Assembly: GCF_003854935.1 (NCBI RefSeq)
Contig: NZ_CP033970.1
Coordinates: 1,054,001-1,118,000, forward strand
Length of the DNA: 64,000 bases
Reading direction: 5' to 3'
Source: Cupriavidus pauculus
Lineage (GTDB): Bacteria > Pseudomonadota > Gammaproteobacteria > Burkholderiales > Burkholderiaceae
The notes beneath the pieces are model-generated. The model saw nothing but the letters and a program-made list of their open reading frames with translations, ran no database searches and had not been told where the DNA came from. Shown one piece after another: positions 42,534-51,085 of the stretch. Both the position numbers and the translations under genes were made by a program. The stretch's first letter is position 1; each line of letters begins with the position of its first letter.

Positions 42534-43766
42534 ATGCGCGTCGCCACCTCCACCCTGTATCACCAGGGCCTGTCGTCGATGAACAGCCAGCAGTCCAGCC
42601 TGCTGCACGTGCAGCAGCAGTTGGCCACCGGCCGCCGCGTGCTGACGCCGTCGGACGACCCCGTTGCCGCCACGCGCGCGCTCGGCGTGTCGCAGTCGAT
42701 GGCCGTGAACGGCCAGTACACGGCGTCGCGCAAGCAGGCCAACATGTCGCTGGGGCTGGAGGAAAACACGCTCCAGTCGGTCACCACCACGCTGCAGAAC
42801 ATCAAGACGCTGCTGGTGAACGCCGGCAACGGCACGCTGAGCGACAACGACCGCGCGTCGCTCGCCACGGCGCTGCAGGGCCAGTACGACCAGCTCGTGG
42901 GCCTGGCCAACGCCGACGACGGCAACGGCAACTTCCTGTTCGGCGGCCTGAAGTCGGGCTCGGCACCGTTCGTGGCCGATGCCGCGGGCAACCTGACCTA
43001 CCAGGGCGACACCGGCCACCAGCTGCTGCAGGTGGACGTCGCGCGCCAGATGGAAGCAGGCAACCACGGCGCCGAGATCTTCCAGTCGGTGACCGCCAAT
43101 GCCGGCTACGTGATCAAGGGCACCGGCACCAACGCCGGCACCGGCGTGTTCAGCGCGATTTCGGTGACCAACCCGACCGATCCCGCCTACGGCCACTCGT
43201 TCAGCGTCGCGTTCCAGACCGACGCCGGCACCGGCAAGAAGCAGTACGTGGTGACCGACACCACGACCGGCACGACCGCCGCACCGGTGGACTACGTCGA
43301 GAACGGCTCGATCAGCGTGGGCGGCGTGTCGTTCTCGGTCAAGGGCATGCCGGCCGACACCGACAAGTTCACGGTCCAGCCGGCCCAGCAGGCGGGCGCC
43401 GACATGTTCGCCAACCTGAAGAACGTGATCAGCGCACTGCACCAGCCGATCAGCTCGGGCACGTCGCCCGACGTGGCGGCCGCCAACCTGCAGAACGCTA
43501 TCGCCACCGGCCTGCGCCAGAACGACAACTCGCTGGACAACGTGCTGACCGTGCGTTCGTCGGTGGGCTCGCGCATGAACGAAGTCGACGCGCTGGACAC
43601 CATCGGCGAGAACCGCGACCTCAGCAGCGCCCAGACGCTGTCGAACCTGACCGAGCTGGACTACGCCGCCGCGATCACCGAGTACTACCAGCGCCAGACC
43701 GCGCTGCAGGGCGCGCAGCAATCGTTCATGCAGATCCAGCAGATGAACCTGTTCAGGTTCCTGTAA
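42534..43766 (+). CDS. flgL: Hook-filament junction protein FlgL
   Basis: A 410-residue flagellin-like junction protein. N-terminal MRVATSTLYHQGLSSMNSQQ and LLHVQQQLATGRRVLTPSDDP are typical, and the C-terminal LTELDYAAAITEYYQRQTALQ region pairs with them. It lies 46 bases after flgK under the same late promoter. It is the last flagellar gene before the AT-rich island starts. Confidence 0.95.
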   Translation: MRVATSTLYHQGLSSMNSQQSSLLHVQQQLATGRRVLTPSDDPVAATRALGVSQSMAVNGQYTASRKQANMSLGLEENTLQSVTTTLQNIKTLLVNAGNGTLSDNDRASLATALQGQYDQLVGLANADDGNGNFLFGGLKSGSAPFVADAAGNLTYQGDTGHQLLQVDVARQMEAGNHGAEIFQSVTANAGYVIKGTGTNAGTGVFSAISVTNPTDPAYGHSFSVAFQTDAGTGKKQYVVTDTTTGTTAAPVDYVENGSISVGGVSFSVKGMPADTDKFTVQPAQQAGADMFANLKNVISALHQPISSGTSPDVAAANLQNAIATGLRQNDNSLDNVLTVRSSVGSRMNEVDALDTIGENRDLSSAQTLSNLTELDYAAAITEYYQRQTALQGAQQSFMQIQQMNLFRFL

Positions 43767-43862
43767 CGGACATCGCGCGCCCAGGCGCTGGACGGTGCCG
43801 CTTAGCAATTAAGTGGGTCAATAGCCCACAACAAAGCGAGGCAGACCCGATAGTGAACGGAC

Positions 43863-43891
43863 GGCAAATCCTTGCCTAGCGAGGATTTGCC
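43863..43891. repeat. 10-bp perfect inverted repeat at the left island edge
   Basis: GGCAAATCCT at 43863-43872 and AGGATTTGCC at 43882-43891 with a 9-base loop. No T run follows on either strand. It could be a terminator remnant or the edge of a lost element. A smaller repeat, GTGGG-N7-CCCAC, lies at 43813-43829. The stretch 43767-44009 holds no gene I can support. Confidence 0.6.
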
Positions 43892-44009
43892 ACAGTTTGT
43901 TGCCGGAGCCAACGCTTCCAATATTTCCTCCACGCCAACGCGCTGCCAGCATCAAAACTGTCAATTGGCGTTCAAAGACCCCTCAGTTGTTCTAACTGTC
44001 AAACGCGTC

Positions 44010-44231
44010 TCACTCGGCCACCTCACACAAATGCGACGCCACGTGTGCGACTTGAGCGTGAATCGCATGGCAACTTGTTGGTCCGGTACATGTGATTAGC
44101 TTCGCATCCCGCGCTCGTGAGCCGATAGGGAAGAATACGAACTCCATCCCCGGCCGCCATTGCGGATGATGTCGTAACGCCTCATTGAGTATTTGCAGAT
44201 AATGCGCACGGCTAAACACTTGCTTGGCCAT
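44010..44231 (-). CDS. Small protein of unknown function
   Basis: A 73-residue protein starting MAKQVFSRAHYLQILNEALR. I do not recognise it. It has no signal or membrane segment, is His-rich, and has a short WRPGMEFVFFP stretch that could be a small beta unit. The start at 44231 has a GAGGGGG ribosome site. It lies downstream of the 739-residue gene on the same strand with a 196-base gap, so it may be a separate gene of the island. Confidence 0.5.
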   Translation of the reverse strand: MAKQVFSRAHYLQILNEALRHHPQWRPGMEFVFFPIGSRARDAKLITCTGPTSCHAIHAQVAHVASHLCEVAE

Positions 44232-44427
44232 AGTGCCCCCTCGTAGCGCACCGATGCCTACAGCATAGATCAAGTGCCTCTCATTCCAACTTTCAACGGT
44301 CAGAGAAAATGCGGCTTGCCGAATGCGACGAGGTGCCTGGCGACTCAGCAGGCGCTACGCCATGAGTGTCTGCGCATCTGCAGATTATGCTGCCCTGAAT
44401 AAAGACCCTATTCAGGGCAAGACGTCC

Positions 44428-46647
44428 TCATCGGCCCATGCTACCCATAAGACACAAGAAACCTATCAAAGCGCTCGGTGCCGCAGCGAGTTTTTGAAGG
44501 CTGCGAGCTTGGAGTTCGCGAGAGTCGTCTGCGGAAAGACGAAGTCGACCTGTTGCCAAAGCTGCCGCAAATTCCAGGGATGCCGCACCGTAAGGATGCG
44601 CGTGGCGCTCGAAGACCTTCAGGAGAAACTCTTTCATCAAGCGGCTTAGGTCCGGACTTGACGAGTAGTCAAGTTCTGACGGATGAGCGGCCCGCAAAAT
44701 GCAGGCCTGTAGGAGGTTGTCGTTATATCGAAGGAAGTTTTCCGGCGACAGCACGACAGACTCATATCCACTTGATCGTAACTGGTTCACCGGGTTCGAG
44801 AGTTCTCGAGCGGCTTGAAGGACGCCGGCTACCGTTGCGAACGTTGTGCTCGTGGAGATTTCATCAAGGCTTCGGCCGTCAAACGTCTTCCCGAAGAATA
44901 CGAAGCCATCCGACAGACTTAGTGAAGCGCCCGAGCTTGTCGGCAGGAAGCTATTGAAGGCGTTCTTCACGAGTTCGGCTGCTAGATCGACAGACGCGTC
45001 GACAATGTCAGCAGCAACGCCGCCCACAGTGGGTGTTTCGATTTGCGCGTTTGTAGCCAAATTGTTGAAGGTGTGCCAGGCGTTGGCAGTTCCGTCTGCG
45101 CCAACTGGCAACTCCAACCAGCACGAAAACCCGTACTCTCTTTCGCTTGCATTCTTGATAAGAAATTGCCGAAGCCGTAACCATGTCTCCGCAGTCTGGG
45201 GCATGCCAACCCCAATCAAGAAATGACGAGGAACGTTGGACTTCAAGAACTCTCGGAGATCTCGGCTGATCTCTCGTAGCAGACCACCATCACCGGCGAC
45301 GGCCTGCACTACCAGCACGCCACGTGCGCTCTCCAAAGTAGTCGGACCAAGATAGTCATAGCAGGTGACGCTGGGTCGTTGTTTGCAATCCTTCGTGTTG
45401 TGCAAACGGCCAGCAGCATGGTCTGCGAGTGCTCGCGATCCCGCGTCATTCGCGCAAATTATATGATTTACGGCAGATCCAACGTACCAATCGATCTCGG
45501 CATTCAGCCAAGTCAGCAATTGGCTGTTTCTGCCCACTACTGAGCCATCGAGCATCATCAGTCGTGTGGCGCGTCTCGTGGTGCAGTGAGCGTTGAGTTC
45601 GCCAAGACCGCCTATGCCAAAGTGCTTTAGAAATACTCCGAGGGCCTTAGGGGTGTGGGGTACTCCGAGCGTTACGGCTCTTGGTGGCTTTGCTTTGGAT
45701 GTGAAGTGTTCGCCAAAGAGTTCGATCTGCGTTTCTGATCCATCTGTGAGGTGCTTGCCGTATGAAGGGTCGATCTCGTCGAGTGCCACTAGGACTTTTC
45801 CGCTTCGATCCACACGGCTGGAATCGATGAGCGTAACAAGTCGGTCCGCTTCAAAACCCTGCTCATTGCACAGCGTTTTCGCCATTCCCCCGCTCGTAGA
45901 AGCGGATATCACAACCACATACGGCTCCGTGGGGGGTGAAAGGTCAGCCAAGCGACCGTACGAATGGTAGCTGTCGATGCGGGCGCTGCTTTCTGCGAAG
46001 GCGAGGGCTTCCCGGACGATGGAATAGACTCCCATCGTATCAATGAAAACGCGCGCCAGTGACGATGCCACTAGTTCGGGGGAGGTCAGCGTCAAACATC
46101 GACCGAGGAAAGCCAATTCAGCTTCGCTCGTGGCAAGTTCGCGGGCCTGGATGAAAAGCTTGTTGACCGTCCTAGACGGATGCTTGAAGACATGTCCGGC
46201 TGGTGCGACCTGCACGACGGGATTGGACCGTACAAGCGCCGCAAGCCCCTGGGCAACTAGGTCCTTAAGCGGAAGTTGAATGGTGGAAGTATGTCCGTCC
46301 TCATCATGTGCGTCTTGCGACAACCCATCAGTCGGGCTCCACGAAACAAATATCACCTCCTTGACGAACGGAACCCCTTTGTTCAAGCCCCTGTCCAAAA
46401 ACGTCTGACGGTTTTGGGTAGAGGACGTCCAGTGTCCGATGAGCGACTCAGTGTGATTTGTGTCCGAGATAACGACGATGCAATCGGGCAACGTCTCATT
46501 CTCGCGTAGAGATCTTTCGAGTTCGTCGAAGAAATCAAATTCAGTCGCGGGGCGCTTCGAATCAAAGAAGACGCTCAGCGCATCTACGTCGCATTCAGAC
46601 GACGAGCACGTACAACGTGCAAGGAAGGAATACGCTTTGCGGATCAT
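44428..46647 (-). CDS. 739-residue protein of unknown function in a three-gene cassette
   Basis: I do not recognise a family. It has no signal peptide or membrane helices and no P-loop. The N-terminal third has alternating strands (IVVISDTNHTESLIGHW near residue 58). In the middle YVVVISASTSGGMAKTL (near 245) and later VLVVQAVAGDGGLLREI (near 440) look like strand plus Gly-rich loop units; the second resembles a phosphoribosyltransferase PRPP loop but lacks its acidic pair. This is a weak resemblance. The ATG overlaps the GHKL gene stop by four bases. Base use is AT-richer than the flanks. Confidence 0.8.
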   Translation of the reverse strand: MIRKAYSFLARCTCSSSECDVDALSVFFDSKRPATEFDFFDELERSLRENETLPDCIVVISDTNHTESLIGHWTSSTQNRQTFLDRGLNKGVPFVKEVIFVSWSPTDGLSQDAHDEDGHTSTIQLPLKDLVAQGLAALVRSNPVVQVAPAGHVFKHPSRTVNKLFIQARELATSEAELAFLGRCLTLTSPELVASSLARVFIDTMGVYSIVREALAFAESSARIDSYHSYGRLADLSPPTEPYVVVISASTSGGMAKTLCNEQGFEADRLVTLIDSSRVDRSGKVLVALDEIDPSYGKHLTDGSETQIELFGEHFTSKAKPPRAVTLGVPHTPKALGVFLKHFGIGGLGELNAHCTTRRATRLMMLDGSVVGRNSQLLTWLNAEIDWYVGSAVNHIICANDAGSRALADHAAGRLHNTKDCKQRPSVTCYDYLGPTTLESARGVLVVQAVAGDGGLLREISRDLREFLKSNVPRHFLIGVGMPQTAETWLRLRQFLIKNASEREYGFSCWLELPVGADGTANAWHTFNNLATNAQIETPTVGGVAADIVDASVDLAAELVKNAFNSFLPTSSGASLSLSDGFVFFGKTFDGRSLDEISTSTTFATVAGVLQAARELSNPVNQLRSSGYESVVLSPENFLRYNDNLLQACILRAAHPSELDYSSSPDLSRLMKEFLLKVFERHAHPYGAASLEFAAALATGRLRLSADDSRELQARSLQKLAAAPSALIGFLCLMGSMGR

Positions 46648-47786
46648 CTTCTAATGGGAATAAGCAGTGAAATGACGGCCCCGGTTGCAGGGGCCAGGTC
46701 TTTGGCGGACCAGTCTTCGAACGCGAAGAGATCTCTAGCCTCATTCGGTGCGAACGAGTTAAAGATGTGCAATCTGCCGGACCGGATTGATAGCAAGCCC
46801 CCTATGCTGCGAAGGGCATTGAGTACAAGGGGAAGACCGTTTCCTGCCCCGGCCTCGCTCTTCGACGTGACATTTTTCTTTAGACAAGTGAGCAAGGCGT
46901 GACGCTCTTCCTCTAAGGAGAGTTCGTCAATAGACCGGCCTGTGGCCCGGCCGGAAAATCCTGGTCCTGTGTCAAAAAAGCTCAATTGTAAGCAGCGTAG
47001 CGCCTTCTTAGCGCCTTCCCGAACCGGCACTCGCTCTCTATCCCAAAACTCCGCAAGACGTCCATGGCCCGAAAAATCTGATCTGTAGGCGTCTTCGGAC
47101 ATTTGCTGCCAACTCAGAATCAATCCCTCGGCGTGCTCCACGTAGGGGCGATTGTGTCGATCCGTAGTGGCGTGCTGCTGAGTGTTCTTGACCAGTTCGC
47201 TGGCGAACGTGGCGCAGGCCCGCAAAAATTCCGGTGGAATGCGTTCAGCATCGTACTTCGCCACATAGTCGCTAAGTTCGGTGAGCGTCTGGAGCATTCC
47301 CTCCCTATTTTTTACCGACTTCGCATTGCGGGCAAAAAATAATGGCCTGAGATACTGAATTTTGGATCCACCGACGCAGGTGAAATCAATGGTCCGACCC
47401 TTAATAACATTCTGCCATTCAAGTTGGTCGGTGGCCGTCACCTTCTTAGCGGCCGGCTTCAGTGCCTCGCGCCGAGCGACAAACTGGTCGGCGATAGACA
47501 CGCCGTCGCTGAGCCGGAGCGCCACGATCCCAGGTGCATAGTCGCAAAGCTCATCAAGCACCGCAGGCATGTGATTTGCGTTGTGGTACTTGAGGTGCTT
47601 CTCTTGAGCTGAGCGAGCCCAAGTGGCAAGAAGCTGCAGCCGAGCGGCATCATGCATTGCCCCTTTTCGGCGGCTGATGAACTCCTTGCCAAGCTTTAGA
47701 GAACCACCAGAGCTGTTAGTAACCCGATGTAGTGACTGCTCTAGGTCCTCGATGGTCCAGATATCTGGAAGAACTATTTCGTCCAT
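46644..47786 (-). CDS. GHKL-fold (histidine-kinase/MutL-like) ATPase
   Basis: A 380-residue protein whose C-terminal half is a GHKL ATP-binding domain: N-box FASELVKNTQQHA with E197 and N201, G1 box FFDTGPGF (272-277) and G2 box GAGNGLPLVLNAL (313-325). There is no phospho-acceptor His box or receiver, so it is not a normal two-component kinase; it could be a stand-alone ATPase sensor. The first 180 residues are unknown. It starts 24 bases after the MazG-like gene with a GAAGGA site and overlaps the next gene by four bases. Confidence 0.82.
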   Translation of the reverse strand: MDEIVLPDIWTIEDLEQSLHRVTNSSGGSLKLGKEFISRRKGAMHDAARLQLLATWARSAQEKHLKYHNANHMPAVLDELCDYAPGIVALRLSDGVSIADQFVARREALKPAAKKVTATDQLEWQNVIKGRTIDFTCVGGSKIQYLRPLFFARNAKSVKNREGMLQTLTELSDYVAKYDAERIPPEFLRACATFASELVKNTQQHATTDRHNRPYVEHAEGLILSWQQMSEDAYRSDFSGHGRLAEFWDRERVPVREGAKKALRCLQLSFFDTGPGFSGRATGRSIDELSLEEERHALLTCLKKNVTSKSEAGAGNGLPLVLNALRSIGGLLSIRSGRLHIFNSFAPNEARDLFAFEDWSAKDLAPATGAVISLLIPIRR

Positions 47787-47810
47787 AAGGTTCGCATCCT
47801 TCGGCCATTG

Positions 47811-48251
47811 TTATTGGCAGTCACGACTGTCCGTACGAGATGCAATCAACTCACGAATGCGCGGTTCTGGCTTCCAGTAATTGGGGCCTTTCAGAAACTT
47901 GCCGTTGGCATCGTATATTGGATTGCCGTCGCTACCGAGCTTGCTCTCGTTGCTATCCATGATCACGTCAAGGACTTCCTCGAGCGGTAGGCCGTATTTC
48001 AATGCTTCAGAGCGGCAATAGACGATTACGTCGCCGAGCAGGTCTGCTATTGCGACGGCAATATCTAGCTTTGACGCGCCGGATGTTGCCAACGCACCGA
48101 TGTCGTCGATCTCATTCACTTCGTCAATTAACGTAGCCTTGAACTTGGCAAGCCGGTTTCCCACGTCATCCGGGACCGTAGGAGTTTCATGGGCAGGTAG
48201 GCGATACATTGCGTTCATCCCGGCGATGCGGTCGCGAAAATTTCGGTTCAT
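47811..48251 (-). CDS. MazG-like nucleotide pyrophosphohydrolase
   Basis: A 146-residue all-alpha NTP pyrophosphohydrolase of the MazG-like type. The magnesium-binding sets are E44/E47 in LIDEVNEIDD and D70/D74 in VAIADLLGDVIVYC. The C-terminal signature IMDSNESKLGSDGNPIYD (from residue 97), then KGPNYWKPEP, is typical of small MazG-like proteins. Enzymes of this fold cleave NTPs or dNTPs to monophosphates. It is first in the leftward cassette. An in-frame ATG at 48218 is an alternative start. Confidence 0.85.
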   Translation of the reverse strand: MNRNFRDRIAGMNAMYRLPAHETPTVPDDVGNRLAKFKATLIDEVNEIDDIGALATSGASKLDIAVAIADLLGDVIVYCRSEALKYGLPLEEVLDVIMDSNESKLGSDGNPIYDANGKFLKGPNYWKPEPRIRELIASRTDSRDCQ

Positions 48252-48357
48252 GTCAATCAGGTCTGCTCGAAGTTGTCCGATACGGTTTCATTTGCAAATG
48301 CCACACGGGCACGCGCTCCGGTTTCGATGGGGAACAGTCATCATCCATACTGTGCAA

Positions 48358-48385
48358 ATTATACTGAGCGCGTGCGAAGTGTGAC
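48358..48385 (-). promoter_or_regulatory. Candidate sigma-70 promoter of the three-gene cassette
   Basis: Read leftward, GTCACA at 48385-48380, sixteen bases, and a perfect TATAAT at 48363-48358. It lies about 107 bases before the MazG-like start. A short open frame of 31 codons begins at 48348 and stops at 48253, two bases before that start; it may be a leader peptide. Confidence 0.55.
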
Positions 48386-48512
48386 CCAGTTGCAGCTTGG
48401 GCCTCGATGCGTGTATTAAAATGACGATGGAGGCGTTCTAAAGCGCCTCGTGCAGCGCAGCTCGGTAACGGTGGGAAATACACCAACGTTCCTAAGTCAT
48501 GGTATCCCGGTG

Positions 48513-48647
48513 CTCAAGCGACTGACTACGCGATCCGGCGCCGTGCGTGACCGGCTGCTGGCCGTGCGTCGCTGGATCGACCGCGCCTTTGGCGGGCTCC
48601 TGGTCGGTTGTGGCGTCTTGCTGGCGGTGGCACGCGGCTCGCGCTGA
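48513..48647 (+). pseudogene. C-terminal remnant of a LysE/RhtB-type exporter
   Basis: About 45 codons ending in TGA read RLTTRSGAVRDRLLAVRRW then IDRAFGGLLVGCGVLLAV, which resembles the last helix of LysE-family amino-acid exporters (a basic stretch, Asp/Arg pair, then G-hLhGLGhhLAh). No start, ribosome site or N-terminal part is present, and the sequence upstream is the AT-rich island. It marks high-GC host DNA cut by the island. Confidence 0.6.
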
Positions 48648-49407: not shown

Positions 49408-49453
49408 CGCGCCGTCGCCAGCCCCAGCATCTGCCGCCAACGGAGTGCAATCC

Positions 49454-51085
49454 ATGAATATCGAGATTCCGCAGTCTCTGATCCACCCGCTGCTTGCCAT
49501 GGTCGAGGCCGAGTCTCCGCTGGCACGGCAGCTCAAGGAGCACGGTCTCTGTCACGGCAGCATGTCGGTGTCGGCGCGGCTGTTCGACGCACAGTCGCTC
49601 AACATGCTCTACACGCTGAGCAAGGCGAAGAACGAACGGCAGCTCACGTTCCAGATGCTGGCGCTCGACAACGTCTACAACGCTCCGAAGGCACGGACCA
49701 TTCCCGGCCTGGAGCGATTGGTGGCGGGGCTGGTGGCGTACCTGTCGCGCGATGTCATCGACGGCTGGCTGTACCAGCGCAGCCGCGATGGCGTACTGCT
49801 GCCGTGGCTGGTCTATCGCATCCGCCACGTGGAGCCCGAGCAGGGCATGGCCTACGTGGCCATCGACCTGCTGGCGAATACCATGCTGTCCGCCAACTCG
49901 GAGCTGACCGACCCCACGCGGCGCAGAGGGGGCATGACGACGTCGATCATCGTCACGCGCGACGAGATCGTGGACCGCACGATTCCGCAGCTGCTCGCCG
50001 ATTTCGGGTTTTTCAAGGAGTGCGCGGAATTCCGGCAGGAGTACGACCGGCATGCGCAGCTTTTTCTGCGCTACCAGCGCAGCTTCGGCGCGCAGTACAT
50101 CGCCACGGGACCCGCCTTCACCGTGGAAGGCAAGGGCACTGTTTCGCTGGCGCGGCTGGGCGATGGCGTGGCGGCCCGCTGCATCAATGACGAGGAACGG
50201 CTGGAGCGCCGCTTCGAAGTGACATGCGACGCCGAATTCTGGCGCAAGGCCGGGGTGGCCACCGGATTCGAACGGATGCCGCTGCACGGCTACGTGCATC
50301 TGTTCCATCTGGAATGGCACCGCAACATCTGGGTGCACGTGCAGCACCTGACCGAATACCAGTACCAGCCCGGGCTGCGCGACAAGCTCGTGCTGCCGGA
50401 CCACCACCGCGACCTGATCGACATCCTGACCTCGCACCTGGACGTCCTGGTGCAGGACGTGGTGCCTGGCAAATCGGGCGGCACGACCATCCTCTGCCAG
50501 GGCGCGCCCGGCCTTGGCAAGACATTGACGGCCGAGGTGTACGCGGAAGTCGTCGGCCGGCCACTCTACCGCGTGCATTCCGGACAGCTTGGCACGACCG
50601 CCGCCTCGGTCGGCGCCAGCCTGATGGAGATACTGCGCCGCGCCATGCGCTGGAATGCCGTGCTGCTGCTCGACGAGGCCGACGTCTACATCCGCCGCCG
50701 CGACAACGACCTGGAGCACAACGCCATCGTTGCGGAATTCCTGCGCACGCTGGAGTATTTCAGCGGCCTGCTGTTCATGACCACCAACCGTACCGGTGAC
50801 GTCGATGACGCCATCCTGTCACGGTGCATCGCCACCATCCAGTACGAGACGCCCGACCGGGCGGATGCATCGCGCCTGTGGCGTCTGCAAGCCGACCAGT
50901 TCGGCGCGACCCTCGATGACGAACTGGTGGAGGCGTTGACCGCTGCTTACCCGACAGCAAGCGGACGCGACATCAAGGAACTGATGAAACTCGCCACCCG
51001 CTATGCCAAGGCGAAGCAGACGGCGCTGTCGGAAGACGTGTTCCGGCTGTGCGCGCAGTTCCGGGCCATCGCACCGGCGGGATGA
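49454..51085 (+). CDS. AAA-family ATPase with unknown N-terminal domain
   Basis: A 543-residue protein. The C-terminal 220 residues are a classic AAA module: Walker A GAPGLGKT at residues 350-357, Walker B VLLLDEADVYI near 410, sensor FMTTNRT near 443, and the R-finger SRC segment. The first 340 residues do not look like any domain I know and would be the substrate or adaptor part. It resembles single AAA proteins of unknown role. The ATG at 49454 is preferred over the GTG at 49445. No partner gene is coupled to it. Confidence 0.82.
   Translation: MNIEIPQSLIHPLLAMVEAESPLARQLKEHGLCHGSMSVSARLFDAQSLNMLYTLSKAKNERQLTFQMLALDNVYNAPKARTIPGLERLVAGLVAYLSRDVIDGWLYQRSRDGVLLPWLVYRIRHVEPEQGMAYVAIDLLANTMLSANSELTDPTRRRGGMTTSIIVTRDEIVDRTIPQLLADFGFFKECAEFRQEYDRHAQLFLRYQRSFGAQYIATGPAFTVEGKGTVSLARLGDGVAARCINDEERLERRFEVTCDAEFWRKAGVATGFERMPLHGYVHLFHLEWHRNIWVHVQHLTEYQYQPGLRDKLVLPDHHRDLIDILTSHLDVLVQDVVPGKSGGTTILCQGAPGLGKTLTAEVYAEVVGRPLYRVHSGQLGTTAASVGASLMEILRRAMRWNAVLLLDEADVYIRRRDNDLEHNAIVAEFLRTLEYFSGLLFMTTNRTGDVDDAILSRCIATIQYETPDRADASRLWRLQADQFGATLDDELVEALTAAYPTASGRDIKELMKLATRYAKAKQTALSEDVFRLCAQFRAIAPAG

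Follow-up and report, generated by a model that had tools for sequence, protein, structure and literature searches.

The closest described relative of the locus reported here is PDC-M65, a candidate defence system in PADLOC-DB 2.0.0 that consists of two protein models without description (PDLC04764 and PDLC04765). GHKL subunits are known to dimerise on ATP and to relay the conformational change to a partner, and PurR is a DNA-binding repressor with a single phosphoribosyltransferase (PRTase) domain. Among defence systems, Detocs is built from a histidine kinase and a response regulator, and the defences that deplete deoxynucleoside triphosphates (dNTPs) include dCTP deaminase and dGTPase. PRTases associated with Ter systems have also been described, and PMC7824862 proposes a signal-making role for them. 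Here we examine a 64-kb stretch of Cupriavidus pauculus DNA (the window; coordinates are positions within it, and L and G labels denote the loci and genomes compared), in which an AT-rich island holds a MazG-like gene, a GHKL ATPase gene (A) and the gene of a 739-residue protein (B). We put at roughly 0.5 the probability that this locus is a horizontally acquired anti-phage cassette, with a PDC-M65 A+B pair at its core that would act as a GHKL-gated pseudo-PRTase sensor switch. The island and its main features are as follows, OPRT and APRT standing for orotate and adenine phosphoribosyltransferase.

43700..48535, no strand: AT-rich island, 54% GC (guanine plus cytosine), from composition and comparison with Cupriavidus sp. 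LEh25
47811..48251, minus strand: MazG-like all-alpha nucleoside triphosphate (NTP) pyrophosphohydrolase, 146 amino acids, from PDB 3nl9 and acidic motifs
46644..47786, minus strand: A, GHKL ATPase subunit, 380 amino acids, from its PDC-M65A match and GHKL motifs
44428..46647, minus strand: B, predicted tandem pseudo-phosphoribosyltransferase, 739 amino acids, from its PDC-M65B match, models and fold matches
45694..46284, minus strand: B domain 1, residues 122-318, predicted OPRT-like fold with loop ISASTSGG
45106..45630, minus strand: B domain 2, residues about 340-514, predicted PRTase fold closest to APRT with loop VVQAVAGDGG
44428..45090, minus strand: C-terminal helical region of B, residues 520-739, with the family signature FxRxND..IQA..LRxA...E

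The recurring unit is the A+B pair and not the trio. An earlier note on this DNA, made from the sequence alone, had read the three packed minus-strand genes as one cassette. The packing is as it described, with a gap of 24 bases (47787-47810) between the MazG-like gene and A and an overlap of four bases (46644-46647) between A and B, but as a unit the trio did not survive comparison. We examined 30 A+B loci (the window, L011-L024, L053, L054, L064-L072, L074, L075, L077 and L080), leaving L052 (nearly identical to L015), L073 (identical to L012) and L076 (identical to L016) uncounted. A lies directly upstream of B in all 30, and in most the two overlap or are a few bases apart; the A of L074 was missed by the default profile search, recognised by eye and then matched at an E value of 6.9e-8 with filters off. 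One partner is broken in L024, L053, L071 and L077. The distance matrices of A and B are closely correlated (Mantel r 0.96 over 25 pairs), with none of 5000 permutations as high. The MazG-like gene accompanies the pair at two loci, both of them Cupriavidus islands, and its relatives also occur without an adjoining A or B: three other genomes among 60 of Cupriavidus carry a 70% identical gene with neither partner in the surrounding 3.4 kb; in one of the three, G025, an A+B pair is found on a different contig. The MazG-like gene is an accessory and not part of the core.

Judged from its motifs, A is a GHKL ATPase, as the earlier note had proposed, and its motif set is complete. It matches PADLOC PDC-M65A (PDLC04764) with an E value of 1.3e-25, residues 11-379 aligning to positions 14-394 of a model of 398. 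The residues that we take to form the GHKL boxes are E197 and N201 (N-box), D272-G274-G276 (G1) and G315 and G317 (G2); E197, N201, D272, G274, G276 and G317 do not vary among the 19 aligned A proteins, and G315 is kept in at least 90%. Three of these 19 family members match Pfam HATPase_c (best E value 0.0058), and A of the window is unmatched at E<=1. No HisKA or receiver domain appeared among the Pfam results for A and 18 relatives, a search that divergent domains could escape, and no meaningful sequence match of A to solved structures was found. Pfam detected no DNA-binding domain in A or B.

B appears from its predicted structure to be a double PRTase fold without key active-site residues. 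It matches PADLOC PDC-M65B (PDLC04765) in two stretches with an E value of 2.6e-44, the best covering residues 379-714 on positions 400-738 of 763, and is thus a divergent member compared with the B of L054 (1021 bits, E value 0). Pfam gave no match for the window's B and no usable match for 19 B proteins; no usable Pfam or NCBIfam match was obtained for any of the three cassette proteins, and no sequence match of B to solved structures was found. Structure prediction, which the earlier note had suggested for this protein, gave two PRTase folds, one OPRT-like and one nearest to APRT. The fold matches come from Foldseek, with the domain 1 model also compared by VIA-align; unrelated adenylation-domain rows stand in the same Foldseek list at lower probability. 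That the PDC-M65B profile also matches OPRT-like genes is counted in support of the fold. In the window's B the two loops listed above are the equivalents of the loops that bind phosphoribosyl pyrophosphate (PRPP), and both lack the acidic pair. The glycines of the loops, like the predicted fold, are preserved. The pair is absent from loop 1 in 29 of 29 aligned B proteins and from loop 2 in 26 of the 29, one more having a single acid, and its loss suggests a sensor rather than an enzyme. The same counts tell against a live B of unusual chemistry, that is, a PRTase-fold transferase that would make a nucleotide-derived signal. Such an enzyme is improbable in our estimate, even with the retained fold, the DD pair kept in the second loop of two divergent GHKL-linked relatives, and the precedent of the Ter PRTases, proposed as signal makers in PMC7824862.

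Divergent GHKL and PRTase pairs with a DD pair in loop 2 were seen at L074:2040-4187 and L070:5144-7324, and also in L032 and L062. Their sequences would fit a sister family that is perhaps still enzymatic; set beside the other members, they would allow an enzyme-like form to be compared with a sensor-like one.

The neighbours of A+B are strongly enriched for defence genes relative to control regions of the same contigs. The comparison covers 10 of the 30 loci, those whose contigs yielded control regions. At E<=1e-10, 265 PADLOC families were matched by the 76 proteins tested within about 6 kb of the pair, and 13 (best E value 9.5e-42) by 93 control proteins. These 93 are a subset of 191, since of the two control regions in each genome one was scanned. 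Because a single protein may hit a large number of models (one specificity subunit hit 62), 265 against 13 exaggerates the contrast at gene level; the open reading frames (ORFs) were picked mechanically (at least 120 amino acids, longest first), and some are therefore spurious in GC-rich DNA. Type I and type IIG restriction, AbiEi and AbiEii are among the best 25 of the 265 families; for 24 of the 25 the E value is 3.8e-101 or lower.

At six loci, a defence gene matched by PADLOC is no more than 350 bases away from A or B. A type I specificity subunit and methyltransferase end where A begins in L080, and LmuA and LmuB of Lamassu lie downstream of B in L075; the others are a type I restriction endonuclease (L065), a type IIG enzyme (L066), PDC-S02 (L077) and, in L067, a short ORF that aligns with the first 49 positions of ThsA and is preceded by HmaC. 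At four more loci such a gene lies within 3.5 kb, namely the PDC-S25 SIR2 protein of L054, an Aga_SIR2 match in L071, a partial MkoC match on the opposite strand in L070, and one in L024. Annotation adds Qat genes beside L019, and TIR and multiubiquitin/ThiF genes beside L017. The Lamassu-type genes span L075:8780-14861 (LmuA and LmuB, downstream of the pair) and L024:1788-9080 (an LmuA match, upstream of it). In L054 a 1074-residue protein (L054:4692-7916) starts 10 bases downstream of the pair and is followed by the PDC-S25 SIR2 protein; it has no PADLOC match at E<=1e-8.

The defence role that the earlier note had inferred for its trio is well supported by this context for the pair, which sits beside known defence genes at several loci and whose two proteins both match PADLOC candidate models. 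We regard a defence role of A+B, resting on that context, as probable. An accessory regulator of nucleotide metabolism that travels on mobile elements without being a defence system would account for the PRTase fold, for the MazG-like and thyX genes and the dgt gene beside one copy, and for the presence of PurR, a PRTase-fold regulator, among the fold matches. The patchy and often decayed occurrence of the pair, its proximity to defence genes, those of restriction and Lamassu systems among them, and the lack of a DNA-binding domain in the Pfam results make this as improbable as the live-enzyme alternative.

Distribution counts include the window's own genome. Carriers of A+B are mostly Proteobacteria, with Bacteroidota (Spirosoma) also represented. 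A single-sequence search recovered B, whole or in part, from 8 of 149 relatives. B or part of it was also present in 8 of 399 genomes of the order, in 3 of 369 of the class (a fragment in one of the three), on three contigs of a viral collection and in 11 of 72,556 plasmid records, a number that rose to 14 when a rhizobial query was used. The divergent B of L054 had no match in 50,697 phage records, and E. coli gave no DNA-level match to the pairs of L015 and L054. A profile search with the PDC-M65B family matched 21 genomes, 15 of them from one family (f78); within it G405 holds a divergent pair, and the other 14 matches are weak, none having an E value better than 1.2e-5 or covering more than 145 of the 763 profile positions. 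Those 14 were rejected as carriers, the three matched ORFs that were read being OPRT genes by motif, which leaves 7 carriers in 398. Broken copies or fragments are common (L006, L009, L024, L025, L053, L071, L077, L079, L146 and L147).

The many copies on plasmids, those on contigs of the viral collection, and the surroundings of L072, which by eye resemble a conjugative element, could also be read as signs of a system directed against plasmids, conjugation or other mobile elements instead of phages. Other defence genes travel on the same types of element, however, and nothing seen indicates plasmid targets; we consider this very improbable.

The gene in front of the pair varies. The MazG-like protein of the window matches the solved NTP pyrophosphohydrolase 3nl9 with an E value of 2e-5, and its motifs E44xxE47 and D70xxxD74 are conserved in five aligned proteins, including two phage-borne relatives, which bears out the assignment made in the earlier note; the protein had no Pfam or NCBIfam match at E<=1 and no PADLOC match. 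Its best matches in plasmid and phage collections are on Cupriavidus plasmids and in phages such as Tiera and BcepSaruman. A 69% identical copy lies on a Cupriavidus basilensis plasmid (L063:5001-5435), with a PIN-domain gene on one side and, on the other, a run of genes whose last member is an N-6 DNA methylase; by position it is probably one of the three A+B-free Cupriavidus genes mentioned above, and its surroundings are possibly another defence island. At three of the 30 loci, all on Rhizobiaceae plasmids and in three different surroundings, thyX lies directly upstream of A instead (Pfam Thy1, E value 4.7e-56). These thyX-A-B runs occupy L017:5795-10154, L018:5531-9887 and L020:5538-9890, in one case followed closely by a dgt gene. 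The 180-residue protein upstream of A in L016 looked PIN-like by eye, an assignment that was dropped for lack of Pfam support.

Such variety would also be expected if the role of A+B were limited to that of a guard or switch, and if the preceding gene, whether MazG-like or thyX, or another protein elsewhere, supplied the effector acting on the nucleotide pool or on nucleic acid. The pair is constant beneath a MazG-like gene, thyX, the 180-residue protein or the short ThsA-matching ORF, and the MazG-like gene sits 24 bases before A with its acidic motifs retained. In L014, L015, L021 and L022, however, the nearest upstream gene is on the opposite strand or distant, and therefore A+B there works alone or with genes elsewhere. 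We judge the division into guard and separate effector distinctly unlikely.

Under the explanation that we favour, the GHKL-gated sensor switch, B would no longer transfer phosphoribose and would retain the phosphate-binding pocket, through which it may sense a nucleotide, a ribose phosphate, PRPP or an alarmone whose level is altered by infection. A could be a dimer clamp or switch driven by ATP, and either keep B inactive or, in the manner of GHKL proteins, pass on the ligand state of B. Once triggered, the complex would halt phage replication via the conserved C-terminal region of B, a co-encoded nucleotide enzyme, or both. In the Cupriavidus variant the MazG-like pyrophosphohydrolase may drain or reshape the (d)NTP pool, and on the three rhizobial plasmids ThyX might be the co-encoded nucleotide enzyme, so that the two would be optional, swappable helpers acting on the same nucleotide pools. 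We hold the sensor reading of A+B to be tentative, at somewhat under even odds, and a direct contribution of MazG to be rather doubtful.

Several observations weigh against this explanation. The MazG-like gene and thyX are not core, being present at 2 and 3 of the 30 loci, and in a fourth rhizobial locus, a remnant, A is found with no thyX. The full model of B is of moderate quality (pLDDT 74.5, pTM 0.50), and its C-terminal region was hardly probed by the fold search. Loss of the acidic pair speaks only against ordinary Mg-PRPP chemistry, and ligand binding by B is a prediction. Both Pantoea plasmid copies lie amid ordinary metabolic and regulatory genes with no obvious defence neighbours; three of nine further neighbours taken singly had no PADLOC match or a generic one only (L064, L068 and L012), and in another PADLOC scan two of ten single neighbours were unmatched (L012 and L054). 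Selection of PADLOC candidates itself draws on context, and the context argument is therefore not fully independent. Finally, we know of no published test of the A+B pair, and a literature search without most subscription journals or preprints found no experimental test of any PDC-M65 member.

Until now the pair stood in the catalogue without a name, and no domain was assigned to B by the protein-family libraries searched. A more far-reaching proposal, which we think unlikely, is that A+B represents a new class of immune sensor, in which a tandem of one OPRT-like and one APRT-like PRTase has lost the catalytic acidic pair, gauges nucleotide or ribose-phosphate status under GHKL gating, works with interchangeable pool enzymes, and detects the take-over of nucleotide supply by phages. 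If this were true, a dead salvage enzyme may serve bacteria to monitor nucleotide pools during infection, and the swapped upstream genes would suggest which pathway is monitored.

The composition of the island and its comparison with LEh25 bear on how the cassette was acquired. Its GC content is 0.541; 200 overlapping segments of 4.7 kb, taken from the 64 kb outside the island, average 0.682 (sd 0.019), which puts the island at z = -7.6, and its flanks are at 66-68%. GC at third codon positions is 0.585-0.599 in the three cassette genes, 0.92-0.96 in flgJ, flgK and flgL, and 0.83-0.85 in three right-flank genes. The codon-usage distance to the pool of six flank genes is 0.18 for both A and B and 0.04-0.07 for three flank genes, which are themselves members of that pool. 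The contrast with both flanks that the earlier note had seen by eye is thus borne out in composition and codon use; the promoter-like sequence that it mentioned fared less well. One sigma-70-like site does precede the MazG-like gene (minus strand 48385-48358, GTCACA-16-TATAAT, 10 of 12 matches), but two sites in the region against 2.8 expected from shuffles is not above chance. The site was therefore rejected as evidence and carries no weight here.

The left border of the island is the end of flgL, downstream of which it lies, and the right border is at about 48.53 kb. The window and LEh25 share a block from about 43.5-43.7 kb to 48.53 kb that is 87.5% identical over 5047 columns and adjoins flgL in LEh25 also. 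The flagellar genes beside it are 75-78% identical in the longer aligned pieces. In 200-base steps outside the block, identity is 0.59-0.69 on the left and 0.41-0.57 on the right, falling away sharply past 48.5 kb. The higher identity of the island than of the flagellar genes, followed by this collapse, points to lateral movement between Cupriavidus lineages. Differences between the two copies are concentrated at third codon positions (B 173 of 238, A 99 of 135, MazG-like gene 27 of 39, 87-residue ORF 15 of 24), which fits protein genes under selection. The last of these is a further feature of the island:

44010..44273, minus strand: 87-residue ORF downstream of B, 90% identical in LEh25, with coding-like substitutions

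Its family was matched in all 60 Cupriavidus genomes searched, at about 50% identity in most; the island holds an extra copy, which is probably cargo.

No clean empty site was found in 11 other Cupriavidus genomes over about 18 kb past the end of flgL in each; the window's right flank is present there in none of the 11. A repeat search around the island found no duplicated repeat of the attachment type, and the flgL-end pattern tested is single-copy in the window. Short copies (55-61 bases, 87-90%) of the final 60 or so bases of flgL (window 43704-43764) do occur elsewhere in three other Cupriavidus genomes, and to judge from these sequences the end of this gene may be an insertion hotspot. 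Just inside the left end of the island, a 13-pair hairpin followed by a T-rich stretch (43863-43891, plus strand) is possibly the flgL terminator. Just right of the island, at 49445-51085, lies the gene of a 546-residue AAA ATPase (Pfam AAA, E value 1.8e-14), flanked by an esterase-like gene and a putative transporter.

Compared with known proteins, the two domains of B are alike in fold to PyrE (an OPRT) and APRT, but B carries two copies of the fold in one chain and the acidic PRPP pair is gone from both loops. Bacillus PurR shows the PRTase fold in a regulator, and PurR structures with cPRPP and ppGpp are among the fold matches of B (1p4a, 1o57 and 7rmw); B differs in having two PRTase domains and no Pfam DNA-binding domain. 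PRTase-CE (PF24390) was matched weakly by one divergent relative (E value 0.074, below the curated cut-off) and by one viral model, and the window's B itself gives no match. Figure labels in PMC13092281 name a PRTase and a HATPase, labels from which neither a shared system nor a relation to A+B can be told. With Detocs and the dNTP-depleting defences the locus shares the idea of signal-transduction-like proteins tied to nucleotide depletion; no partner of the histidine-kinase or response-regulator type was seen for A. The earlier note had known of no described system with this make-up. No paper naming 'PDC-M65' came to light in the literature search described above, but the pair is already catalogued under that name, and the system itself is therefore not of a new kind: the same two-gene order is found at every locus seen, both proteins match, and the window differs in having the MazG-like gene as an extra third member. 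What is new, as far as we have found, is the assignment of predicted domains to B, the disappearance of the acidic pair together with the relatives that retain it, and the MazG-like and ThyX variants.

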